NCBI GenBank assembly: GCA_021292105.1
Contig: CM037874.1
Coordinates: forward strand, 8,262,653 to 8,326,652
Length of the DNA: 64,000 nt
Source: Anadara kagoshimensis
Taxonomy: Eukaryota; Mollusca; Bivalvia; Arcoida; Arcidae
Reading direction: 5' to 3'
Below the pieces are notes generated by a model, which had not been told where the DNA came from, did not search any database, and was given only the letters and a program-made list of their open reading frames with translations. Shown piece by piece: positions 5,101 to 11,100 of this stretch; within the stretch, counting starts at the first letter, position 1; each line of letters begins with the position of its first letter. The position numbers and the translations under genes were made by a program.

Positions 5101-8100
5101 GCTAAGAATTTTGAACAATCAAGTCCCAATTGATATTGTAGATGTGTGCATTTATTTGATTGATGTGGTGAATAATACATGTATTTCTGAAGTGGTGTGC
5201 TTGAATAATAATTTCATTGCAGCCTCATGTAGGAATATTACTATATAGCAACAATTCCTTATAATTGCAAATCAGGATAACAAATCTTTAAAACACAAAC
5301 TGAATACTTCAGTTACCTCGAACTCCGGATAAGTCGAACTTTTTGCATTTCCCCGTCAAGTTCGAGATAACGAGAGTCAACTGTAATTGCAAATCAGGAT
5401 AACAATCTTTAAACACAAACTGAATACAGGGATTTTTCTGACCTTTTTGGGAAAAAGACCTTGGGATGAAATTGGGAAAATGCTCAACAAAAATGTAATT
5501 TTGGGAAAAATCACAACAACATATTAGAAATTCTAGACCACTAGAATACTGGTAATTGAACAAATTATATTGGTGTTCACAGCAAAATAGCGCTGTCTCT
5601 TTTATCTCTATATAAATCATCCAGCAAAATGTGGGTTAATATAGATTGAAATCGTTATCACAACGAGATATCCGACGAATATTATGTTGATGATCTTGTG
5701 AAATTTTTTCTCTCAAAAAATTGATAAACATAGCTAATTGTGAATTTTTTACTACAGAATTGGGAAAAATGTATGTTTTTTTGCATCGGGAATGGGTCCC
5801 TTTACCGGACCCTGTGGATACCCAGAAAAATCCCTGGAATACTTCAGTATATTGACACTAACTTTACTGAAATGTTCATGTTCACTTGTATACACATTGA
5901 AGTGATGACAATATGATACTTCAGTCTGTTGATCAAGTTCCAATATCTTCCTTGATTGCAACAGGCAAGAGGTATCCCTGGTTAAATGGATTACCTTGAG
6001 GTTTCAGTACCTACCTACCTAGTCCTTTTTATGCCCGGGGGCACATAGGGCAAGGAAGGTTTCAATAACCACACAGAAAAAATGGGGTTAAATTATGTCA
6101 AGCAGGATAGCTACTGCTTTCACATCTTGCAAAAAAAAAAAATGTTAGAAAATGTTTTCTGATGGAGTCCACTGTCATATATATAAAAATGTGTCTAAAT
6201 ATGAAAGTACAAACTCTATGAAGTACCTAAAGAAGCAGAATATTGTACATGAAAATGGTGAAAATTTTCATAGAGAAAATTTAGGGCCCCTTGTCATATT
6301 TTGTAAGCAACAAGCCAAAATTTAGGGCCCCTTGTCATATTTTGTAAGCAACAAGCCAAAATCATCCTTGCATTTAACTTTGTTGCATTGCATGAAATTT
6401 GCTGTAAACTTTCAAAATGCAAATACAAAGATTTTTCTGGTTATAGTTGAGTAATACTACAACATGCTGTCACAGCTGGATAAATGATCTTCATCAAGTC
6501 TTAATTAAAATTTTGTCCTATTCACTGTGCATTGAAATGCTGAGAAATTGAATCTTTCCCTTTACTCATTTAGGGTCAGATATAACATTTATTGTGTGTG
6601 TATGTAGTAGCCTTATTTCACAGATCATAGAAGCATGGACTTTTCTTTAGTGTACTAAGAAGACAACAGTTAATTTCATTTCAATGTACAACCAAAAATA
6701 TTTGGGGAAGAAATTTTAATGATTTTCTTGAACATTTATTAAAGAATTCGTGCACTTCTAAAGGTATTTTATCATCTTGCATTTTTATCCTAAAATTTTA
6801 CATTGCTGCCAGCAATCAAGTTTTTCACTGTGAAATCATGAAAATTTATTCCCTGCTAATATTTTACTTGTACAGAATTTCATTTTCACCATTCATGTCT
6901 TTGTTATTTTATGTACTTTTCTCTTTTTATTATCATCACAGCTTAAGAATATCATGGTTGTTGGTATTGATTCCTATCATGATTCCTCGAAGAAAGGTCG
7001 CTCTGTGGGTGGTGTCATTGCCAGTATGAATACAGCTTTGACCCGTTATTACTCTAGATGTACCTTCCAACATAATATGCAGGAATTACTGGATGGTCTT
7101 AAAGTTTGCATGAAAGGTTTGCCTGTCTCAATTAATTTTGGAATTTGTATGGTTGGATTGCAAAACAAAGCTACAAGAGGGGGAGAAGAGGTTGAAGCTT
7201 CATTGACCGGTTATTTTGCAATTTATCCATACTTATTTCCCTTGTCACACTTCACAACAAGGTCATATTGTGCAGATATTGTTGATCTTGAGGTTGGGTT
7301 ACTTCCAACTTTGTCTACAGCTTCAAGATGTGAGTTTTGATCAGTGATTGATTTTAACTTGGATATCTCTCCTAATCTTGTCCTACGACCTATTTCATGT
7401 AGTAATGGATATTTTGTACTAATGGCGCTGGTTCTTCCCCTGACTCTCCATTTTGATATTTTCCATTTTCTGTCAAAATCAAGAAATGTATTGGTCAGAT
7501 GACTGATGGTGCCTATCAATTTCTACTACTGGGTCATTTTGGTTGGATAATTGTCACAATTTCTTCATCATACAGTTCAGTATGTTGGGACAGAATTTCA
7601 CTGTCATATCTGTATCATTTCATTCTTCATTCATTTTATATGCATGCTTGAATTTTATAGCTGCCTGAGAATGTCATGTTTGTGTCTGTAATCATTGTTG
7701 TTTCAGTTCATTATTATTTTGTTTGACATTGTTGTTTTCTTATTGTGTAACTTTGTGAAGCATGGTATGTTTGCTGTGTTGATATTTACTGCTTGCTTTC
7801 TTTTTATTTGGGTTAAGTTTGCTTTGTATTGTTTCACTAACTTAAGACAATCATATTCCAGCTATCAAACCTTTATATTATTTAAGCTATTTTCAGTTTA
7901 TTTTGCTTTACTAACTAATGACATTGTATTCCAGCTTTTAAAAACTTTATATTTTAAGCTATTTTCTATTTTCAGTTAATTTTCTTTTACTAATTATCTG
8001 ATACAACATTTTTTTCAGCTTTTAAACTAACTGTTGCTCTCTGTGTGTGACTACTAACATTATACAATATCGAAAATTTTCTGAAAATTCTTAAGTTTTC

Positions 8101-11100
8101 AATTTGTGATAATTAGCTTGATTGTACAAAATACAGAACACCATTTGTCAGACCATTGGTGTACCTGTTTTAAGTTTTGATGTATTAGGTGGGAAAACTG
8201 CTTATATTTTTTAAGACTTTTTTCCATGTGTGTTTTTCAATTCAAAATTTCAATTCTTTATAAGTTCTTCTTCAATTCTTTGGAAGGTACCTAAAAAAAA
8301 ACATATGTCATGTTACAGCAGGCATAGCATATTAAGGAACTATCCATGCATGTTCCCCTGATCGCACTGCAAAGATAAAAATTTCTGCCACTTCAACTGA
8401 AGCTGGTGACGTCTTGATATAATTGAAATACTCTTGACTGGGTTATAAAACCCCATTCAATCAATGGTTCAATTCTTCATGTCAACATTGAAATCTAATT
8501 TGGAAAGTTTGAGTTGTTTCATGTTGGGTTCAGCTCCATATGGGACAAGCGTAACGGTATATATTATTTTAATTTTCTGTCCATTCAAATTGATTTACAT
8601 GGTCCTTGCTGAGATATCCCTTATTATTTGTGTCTTAAAAATAAATGTATGTTTTATGTCCTCTCAATGTTTAACTAACACAAGCAATGTTTAGAATACT
8701 AACATTTATTCAGGGCTCGACAATAATGTTTGTTTGATACCAGTCCGTTTTGGTGGCAGACAAGTGATAGTGTGGCCGTGCTTGTCCAACAGGACAAGTA
8801 GTTGTTGGATAATTCCACTTTCGTTCTCATAATTCATCACAATTCACTCTATGAAATAAGTAATTTCCGATTGCAACCTATAACGCGTGAAATTGATAAA
8901 AACAGATGTCTTCCAAATATTAACATCTTAATCATAAGAGAATTAGGTTTTCAACATCTTTATACAAACTTATGATAAAACCACATGGTTCAGTTGCAGG
9001 CATCATGGATTAAACTAAATTTGGGTTTACTGCACCCCAAAAAAACGCCAAAAAACAAAACAAAACAAAAACTGTGGCAGAAAAAATTGAAAGGGATGTT
9101 GACAAGAGAAATAATCTGGATTTATCAAATATGAGTGGTAGGACCATGTACTCTACAGAAAACGCACAAAAATTGCTTTACGTTTTTTGTTTTTAATAAA
9201 TCGGACAAGTTAATTTTACGTTCGGACAAGTGAAATTTATTTCCACCATTTGGACGAGCATGATATAAAGTTATTGTAGAGCCCTGGTATTGACAATATT
9301 GATGTATGTTAGGATGAAATGATCATTATTATGAGTAGATTAAGTGAATCTTATTTATGAATTCTAAATTACATATTTTTTATTTTATTTTATTTTTCAA
9401 AAAAAAAAAAAAAATGTATTTTAATTTGAAAGAAATTGCCTTTGTCTTTAACAGCTTAAAAATTTGATGGTGGTAGGAATTGATACTTATCACGATTCGG
9501 CTAAGAAAGGTCGCTCCGTTGGAGGTATAGTAGCGAGCATGAACAAAAATTTAACTAGGTATTATTCTAGTACTGCATTCCACATGAGTGGAGGAGAACT
9601 AGTAGACAACATGACAATCAAACTCCGAGGTAAGTCCTAAAAATCTGGTTTAATATCCCTGGTCCTACAGAAGCCTCTCTTGTGTAAGAATTGATGGTAC
9701 ATTTTGTATTTGCTGCTTAGTTTCAGCTAATAATTCTGATTGCTGTAACAAAATGAATGGTTAAGAACATTCTGTGACCTTACCTACAGTTGATTACAAT
9801 TTGAAAGGAGTCTTGATATACATGTACAATCTAAATAATTGTGATACTGGTAACAGATTTTATTTGTTAATGGATCAAAACACTATTAGTTACTCAAATG
9901 TTTAGTTTTTCATTACATTTTAATGTTCGGCATGTAGGTTATATTTTTGTATTGTCAGAAATATACTATTGACTAAATTTGCTCCCAGTTAAAATCTGAG
10001 AAAGAAAAAAAAAAACAGTATACTTTCTCATCCTTAGCTAAATTTGGTTACCGGGTAATATAATTTGGCCATTTGGATATTTTTTTCAACCCTTTGATCT
10101 AAGGTTTCATATTTTGATCCAAATACTACTGATGAGGAATTTTATTCAGAAACAGATGTGTAGTCAGTAGTGCTGTAAATTCAATGTTTAGAGTTCATTA
10201 AGTACTTGATTTTGTTTTAGGTGCTTTGGAGAAATACCATGAGGTAAATGGAATCTTACCAGAAAGGATTATAGTGTATCGTGATGGTGTAGGTGATGGA
10301 CAGTTACCTGCTGTTGTAGAACATGAAATTCCTCAGATGATAGAATGCTTCAAGAAGGCTGGAGGCACAGAATACAAGTAAGTCTCAAATAATTCTATAT
10401 ATGAAGTTATAGATACTTACTTACTTATGCCTGTGGTACCAGGGAGGTACGTAGGCCACTGACAACACACCTCTATCTGGTTCTATTCTGTGCTAATCTG
10501 CCCAGGTCTTGCCATGTGTATCCCTCTCTATCCATTTCTGATTGCAGGTTTCTCCTCCAGGTGTTTCTTGGCCTTCCAACTTTTCTTTTCCCTTGAGGAT
10601 TCCACTGCAGCTCTTGTCTTGTGATTGAATATGTTGGCTTTTGCAGTGTGTGTCCTATCCATCACCGTTTCCTTTTTGATAACTCCATCTCTATAGGTTG
10701 TTGTTTCGTATTCTCCCATAAATTAAGGTTGGTGATTGGTGATGAAGTTATAGATGTTGTATATAAAAACCCATATGAATGAACCTAGATCTTAAAATTA
10801 GTTTATTATATGTTTTCATTTGATAATGAACTTAAAGAAATTACAGATATATTAAAATATAAATTAAAAAACAAAAATTTAGAGAAGTCTACGAAATAAT
10901 AATAATAAAAAAAACAACAACAAACTACTAGAGTAGAGCAGAAAAGACAAATACTCCAGGTCCCAAACATTGTAAAAACAGACAGATGGACGTTAAGCAT
11001 TGTCTCCTCCTGCTGGTTTACATCTGTCAACTTTTGATCAAAATTCATGAATAGACATGGAGGGGACTCAATATTGGGGTGGGCTATATAGCCATTACAT

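Follow-up and report, generated by a model that had tools for sequence, protein, structure and literature searches.

The locus

We analysed a 64,000-nucleotide stretch of the genome of the bivalve Anadara kagoshimensis (assembly GCA_021292105.1, contig CM037874.1, positions 8,262,653 to 8,326,652 of the forward strand). This stretch is called the window below, and its positions are counted from its first letter. It contains exons of a gene for a PIWI protein, of the kind that silences transposons. One of these, the slicer-core exon with a catalytic Asp and the glutamate finger, occurs there in two versions, exons a and b (Table 1), which appear to be alternatives to one another.

By its matches, the gene is a Piwil1-type PIWI gene, nearer to PIWIL1 than to PIWIL2. 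In a profile search of the genome, PF02171 matches follow it exon by exon. Among PDB entries, its constant C-terminal exons match PIWIL1 best (286 bits), followed by a sponge Piwi (261 bits) and PIWIL2 (223 bits), and the alignment reaches both C-termini. PAZ matches lie upstream, just before the window (C18:8,261,744-8,262,657, where C18 denotes the contig of the window), and are also found at a second copy of the gene, which is described below.

The genome-wide search for PIWI domains, in which the best candidates were scored, yielded three other loci: one Piwi-like gene on contig C5 and two AGO-like loci on contig C7. A single version of the slicer-core exon was found in the C5 gene. This exon ends at a different place than exons a and b, and its similarity to mouse PIWIL2 is not above that to PIWIL1. 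Given that molluscs carry Piwil1 and Piwil2, with Piwil1 conserved among them (PMC6128900), the C5 gene is provisionally taken as Piwil2.

Table 1. Exons of the Piwil1-type gene in the window
Feature	Position in window	Strand	Remarks
Piwil1-type coding exon	2017..2134	+	Open frame, AG/GT sites; exon repeated in second copy
Piwil1-type coding exon	2730..2844	+	Exon also in second copy
Piwil1-type coding exon	3366..3550	+	Exon also in second copy
Piwil1-type coding exon	4073..4224	+	Exon also in second copy
Coding exon that would join to a or b; one-base (A) excess	4746..4871	+	126 nt vs 125 nt in second copy
Exon a, canonical PIWIL1-like slicer-core exon; Asp residue 10, glutamate finger residue 48	6942..7116	+
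Exon b, predicted alternative slicer-core exon; Asp, His, Ser and Glu positions as in a; segment before finger different, after finger partly different	9455..9629	+
Common exon after the a/b pair; second catalytic Asp (YRDG, Siwi D740)	10221..10377	+
Common PIWI-domain exon	11182..11307	+
Common PIWI-domain exon	11830..11977	+
Last coding exon, closing with LYFL and a stop; YAHKL contains the tetrad His at 25 residues from the C-terminus (cf. Siwi H874 of 899)	12468..12584	+

Two versions of the slicer-core exon

Exons a and b each have 175 nt (58 codons plus one base), with phase 0 at the start and phase 1 at the end. Their acceptor ends read TCATCACAG (a) and CTTTAACAG (b), and their donors AAG/GTTTGC (a) and GAG/GTAAGT (b). 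The encoded peptides of 58 residues are 60% identical (E = 2.9e-21 in a search of the window), and the DNA identity of 74-75% is confined to the first 116 nt. A loose tblastn search found no third copy or relic of either exon in the window (next best E = 0.36).

The reading frame ties the two exons together. A message that included both would encounter a stop two codons past the start of b, and one that included neither would meet a stop at the ninth codon past the junction; this test uses exons a and b and the first codons after position 10221. Each exon has one base beyond its 58 codons, so that early stops follow when both or neither are included, and single-exon messages alone keep the frame. 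With a donor-site matrix, the donors score 0.06 (a) and 7.69 (b), and the donor at position 3550 scores 0.16. Given that the donor at 3550 is as weak as that of exon a, a weak donor is not special to exon a, and the default isoform is not predictable from the donors.

The pair had been noted in a preliminary description, made by a model from the letters of this DNA, whose coordinates, lengths, phases and peptides match ours. That description held that inclusion of both exons breaks the frame; we find that omission of both does so likewise. It also saw the form of a mutually exclusive pair, which agrees with the equal length and phase, the separate splice sites and the early stops when both or neither are used. 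Its view that the copies differ mostly in the 3′ half is borne out by the counts given below, and its view of copy a as canonical by the PIWIL1-like sequence of that exon (61.8 bits with PIWIL1 and 23.1 with Siwi). It was correct that the donor of a is weak and that of b strong, but this weakness is not peculiar to exon a.

Catalytic residues

In gapless alignments, Asp at residue 10 and Glu at residue 48, present in a and b alike, align with D670 and E708 of the silkworm protein Siwi. In Siwi, Asp670 belongs to the catalytic tetrad and Glu708 is the glutamate finger (PMC7015924). The remaining tetrad members, an Asp in YRDG and a His in YAHKL, sit in the common exons, and the Asp-Glu-Asp-His (DEDH) tetrad is complete in both isoforms.

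Additional positions can be judged from fly Piwi, which was turned into a slicer by the changes K617H, A625S, V653E and K818H (PMC7015924). Counted from the catalytic Asp, K617H and A625S correspond to exon residues 13 and 21, and V653E to the finger position. Exons a and b both carry His13, Ser21 and Glu48. With the catalytic positions kept in a and b, both predicted isoforms should be able to slice.

The placement of the finger is what completes the catalytic tetrad, according to a review (PMC10772731). The finger is disordered and unplugged in the Siwi crystal, and it is plugged in in human AGO2 (PMC7015924). The same paper notes that slicing and lasting target binding can conflict, as fly Piwi shows.

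Coding constraint and the point of divergence

Between a and b, the first 38 codons show 30 nucleotide differences, of which 21 lie at third positions, and 7 of the 38 residues are changed. A different codon is used for 16 of the 31 conserved residues. By the Nei-Gojobori method (NG86), the nonsynonymous divergence (dN) of this part is 0.12, and the synonymous divergence (dS) is not computable, being saturated. In a neutral simulation with 30 random changes, 18.4 residues were changed on average and a stop was gained in 40% of runs, whereas none of 100,000 runs had as few as seven residue changes. The combination of saturated synonymous sites with few residue changes in the first 38 codons indicates that, during much of the period since the duplication that separated them, both exons were translated. 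Neither exon contains a stop or frameshift, and the splice sites of both are intact.

The last 20 codons have a different character. Here, the differences at the three codon positions number 13, 9 and 13, dN is 0.91, and 16 of the 20 residues differ. Third positions show no excess here, so that the codon comparison bears out constraint on the first 38 codons alone.

The change between the two parts is sharp. Residues are identical at 26 of 32 positions from 7 to 38, compared with 4 of 20 from 39 to 58 (Fisher p = 2.7e-5). Inspection by eye had suggested the split at residue 38; in a permutation made afterwards, in which the split could be chosen freely, 1 of 20,000 permutations was equally sharp. 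The alignment gives 28 row pairs, 8 of which went into the Fisher test; three of its rows are without the first 6 residues, and one residue was taken out of the fly Piwi row to keep the columns. None of the other seven pairs tested gave a value below 0.05, and the two lowest, b with the C5 gene (0.089) and Siwi with PIWIL1 (0.117), lean the same way as a with b. The pairs a-PIWIL1 (16/32 and 13/19), a-C5, a-MILI, a-EfPiwi and C5-MILI are even along their length. Outside the pairs subjected to this test, the Siwi and fly Piwi rows are also less alike to others after residue 38 (EfPiwi-Siwi 14/32 and 2/20). The finger half has therefore changed in insects too, and such a change is not unique to exon b.

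Within the divergent part, the residues before the finger are identical between a and b at 1 of 9 positions, and identical or conservative at 2 of 9. From the finger onward, these counts are 3 of 11 and 8 of 11. By analogy with Argonaute structures, this region would be a strand with the finger loop and then a helix. The 3′ segment of b looks re-tooled rather than decayed.

A second copy of the gene

At a distance of 451 kb, the same contig carries the gene a second time, with coding exons at C18:7,812,911-7,823,832. This second copy has the a/b pair as well, with exon a identical and exon b having one synonymous difference. Exon b begins 2,513 nt after the start of exon a in the window and 2,510 nt after it in the second copy; the order and the flanking exons are alike. 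Collinear pieces of the two gene regions are roughly 95-99% identical, with insertions and deletions. In the coding exons that we compared, the copies differ by 8 substitutions, 6 of which are synonymous. Taken together, a and b (350 nt) have 1 difference, and the flanking intron sequence (2915 nt) has 21 (Fisher p = 0.50).

Compared with the second copy (C18:7.816 Mb), the window exon that precedes the pair is longer by a single A, within the AAA run at 4829-4831. This excess is likely a base error or a mutation. In the second copy, the frames of the a-isoform and the b-isoform are both open over 1418 nt joined. Both the frameshift and the second copy had escaped the preliminary description.

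The doubling extends beyond the gene. Another piece of the window, 30 kb beyond, matches sequences of 88-93% identity at an offset of about 452 kb, and the Piwil1 region as a whole occurs at C18:7.80-7.85 Mb and C18:8.26-8.30 Mb. An AGO locus on C7 is doubled too, with about 916 kb between its occurrences at C7:23.79 Mb and C7:24.71 Mb. Pieces of these doubled Piwil1 and AGO regions are approximately 88-99% identical, with insertions, which suggests retained haplotypes or young duplications.

Interpretation and alternatives

It is likely, judging from the features above, that the slicer-core exon was duplicated in tandem, that both copies still code, and that splicing uses them in a mutually exclusive way, swapping the glutamate-finger half. 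One such exon of a Piwil1-type gene would have been duplicated long ago, with both copies staying coding. Isoform a would keep the canonical PIWIL1-type finger segment. In isoform b, the first half, with the catalytic Asp, would be alike, the stretch up to the finger rewritten and the stretch after it partly altered. Messages with both exons or neither should be lost upon meeting their early stops, and those with a or b alone would yield full-length protein. The choice between the exons is expected to be regulated. Given that both isoforms keep the slicing residues, the swap is likelier to tune than to switch off slicing. It may act on the plugging or mobility of the glutamate finger, or on a partner surface.

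Several points weigh against this reading. The splicing of a and b is predicted from genomic DNA, as are the inclusion of each exon in messages, an exclusive and regulated choice between them and the effect of the swap. Without a third-position excess in the last 20 codons, the codons show constraint on the 5′ part alone, and the last 20 codons of b are at most 7/19 identical (with PIWIL1) to any solved PIWI compared. The weak donor of a means that one exon might be rarely used. As a potential splicing switch, intronic pairing is represented by just three weak inverted repeats, 71-78% complementary. Scans of viral and prokaryote contigs found no relative of exon b, as expected. In the assembly, the excess base in the AAA run puts the window copy out of frame. 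Finally, the differences between the gene copies are too few for testing present-day selection, and a single locus in two haplotypes may account for both copies.

That b, or a, is a fading duplicate that is no longer spliced in had been raised in the preliminary description, and is very unlikely. The divergence of 16 of 20 residues at the end of b would fit such decay, as would the weak donor of a; the use of either exon is predicted from genome sequence, and a recent loss of use is possible. However, 31 of 38 residues in the 5′ part were kept despite saturated synonymous sites, with no match in the neutral simulations, and this strong purifying selection contradicts a fading copy. The exons are also free of stops and frameshifts, have intact splice sites, and from the finger onward are identical or conservative at 8 of 11 positions.

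Less probable still is an unregulated pair, in which a single exon would be used by default everywhere, with the other contributing splicing noise or unproductive messages bound for decay. The unequal donors and the immediate stop upon double inclusion resemble those of exons that lower output. However, a purely unproductive exon has no need of a kept protein sequence, and the 5′ part was kept across saturated synonymous divergence.

An assembly artefact, with two paralogous genes joined so that one appears to hold both exons, is barely credible: the region does occur twice, 451 kb apart, in nearly identical collinear pieces with insertions, as unmerged haplotypes would, and the window copy does have a likely base error or mutation, but both gene copies hold a and then b at nearly the same spacing between like flanking exons, contradicting this second alternative of the preliminary description, and the best candidates in the genome include no further Piwil1-type gene as a donor of b.

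Kinship of exon b

Exon b matches PIWIL2 with 43.9 bits, PIWIL1 with 42.9 and Siwi with 36.9. Its finger loop, HMSGGE, shares the form HxSGxE with that of Siwi (HTSGEE), and beyond residue 38 it is identical to Siwi at 6 of 20 positions.

We compared five set topologies, with no free search, on an alignment of 58 columns and 8 rows. Over all 58 columns, the topology that groups b with the insect rows, with a joining that group next, was best by the approximately unbiased (AU) test (0.94), and those with a and b as sisters were not rejected (0.13 and 0.17). Two topologies that place a beside PIWIL1 and b elsewhere were rejected (AU 0.0036 and 0.041). These two were rejected again on the first 38 columns (0.0044 and 0.0065), which favour a and b together. 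On the last 20 columns, none of the five was rejected by AU at 0.05. Long-branch attraction is a fair objection. An ancient origin of the pair, in which an early protostome Piwil1 alternated PIWIL1-type and Siwi-type finger segments and insect Piwi, Aub and Siwi descend from a gene that kept the b-type exon alone, is a doubtful proposal.

A copy of part of exon b, running into the following intron, occurs on another chromosome, on the minus strand of contig C9 (approximately 8,221,140-8,222,120, within C9:8,219,001-8,225,000). It consists of two pieces that are 96% identical, and is split by a 220-nt element with terminal inverted repeats of about 33 nt (2 mismatches) at a TA site. A 39-nt stretch, the end of the coding sequence, is repeated there as 15 tandem units that share an open frame of 235 codons. 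Counted by eye, 6 of 10 distinct changes among the units are synonymous (28% expected, p ~0.035). The locus could be a young chimeric exon, a capture by a mobile element or a source of small RNAs directed at isoform b. We rejected a retrocopy of spliced RNA, given that the fragment continues into the intron after b. As it holds intron sequence, the fragment says nothing about splicing. Downstream of the Piwil1-type gene, a tRNA-like stretch that by eye resembles a short interspersed nuclear element occupies window positions 16560-16920 (GGTAGCTCAGTCGGTAGAGTGCTCGC...GGTTCGATCC).

Relation to known systems

To our knowledge, PIWI slicing is varied by the use of different PIWI genes or cofactors. 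If the exon pair is used as proposed, it would be a natural domain-swap experiment, with constant guide-binding lobes and catalytic residues and two finger segments. It would offer a way to ask what the finger segment sets, such as cleavage speed, the plugged or unplugged state, partner binding or target release. One could also ask whether germline and somatic PIWI-interacting RNA (piRNA) pathways use different slicer settings.

Mutually exclusive exon clusters that arose by tandem exon duplication are known. Exons a and b resemble such clusters in their equal length, their equal asymmetric phase, the early stop if both are included and the concentration of divergence in one segment. No such cluster is known to us in an Argonaute or PIWI gene. 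Among the matches listed in literature searches, which leave out most subscription papers, no title or abstract opening describes alternative slicer exons in a PIWI gene.

Silkworm Siwi has a finger loop like that of b and scores higher with b than with a, but its low identity to b past residue 38 sets the two apart, and we know of no alternative exon for Siwi. The Piwil1 clade is the closest relative of the gene as a whole: the C-terminal exons are closest to PIWIL1, exon a is PIWIL1-like and the DEDH positions are kept. The gene differs from this clade in having a second version of the Asp/Glu exon. None of the 5 places in PMC6128900 where exons, splicing or isoforms come up mentions such a pair.

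In the shrimp Marsupenaeus japonicus, the Ago1A, Ago1B and Ago1C isoforms are thought to be alternatively spliced from one gene, with the PIWI domain altered (PMC3510085). This system is similar in that splice isoforms alter the PIWI domain of an Argonaute. However, the shrimp isoforms differ by the presence or absence of an 81-nt segment in an AGO protein, whereas homologous slicer-core exons are predicted to be swapped here in a PIWI protein. The mechanism of mutually exclusive exons and the gene Piwil1 are thus each known; the new part would be their combination at the slicer core, for which the shrimp Ago1 insert is the nearest known counterpart.

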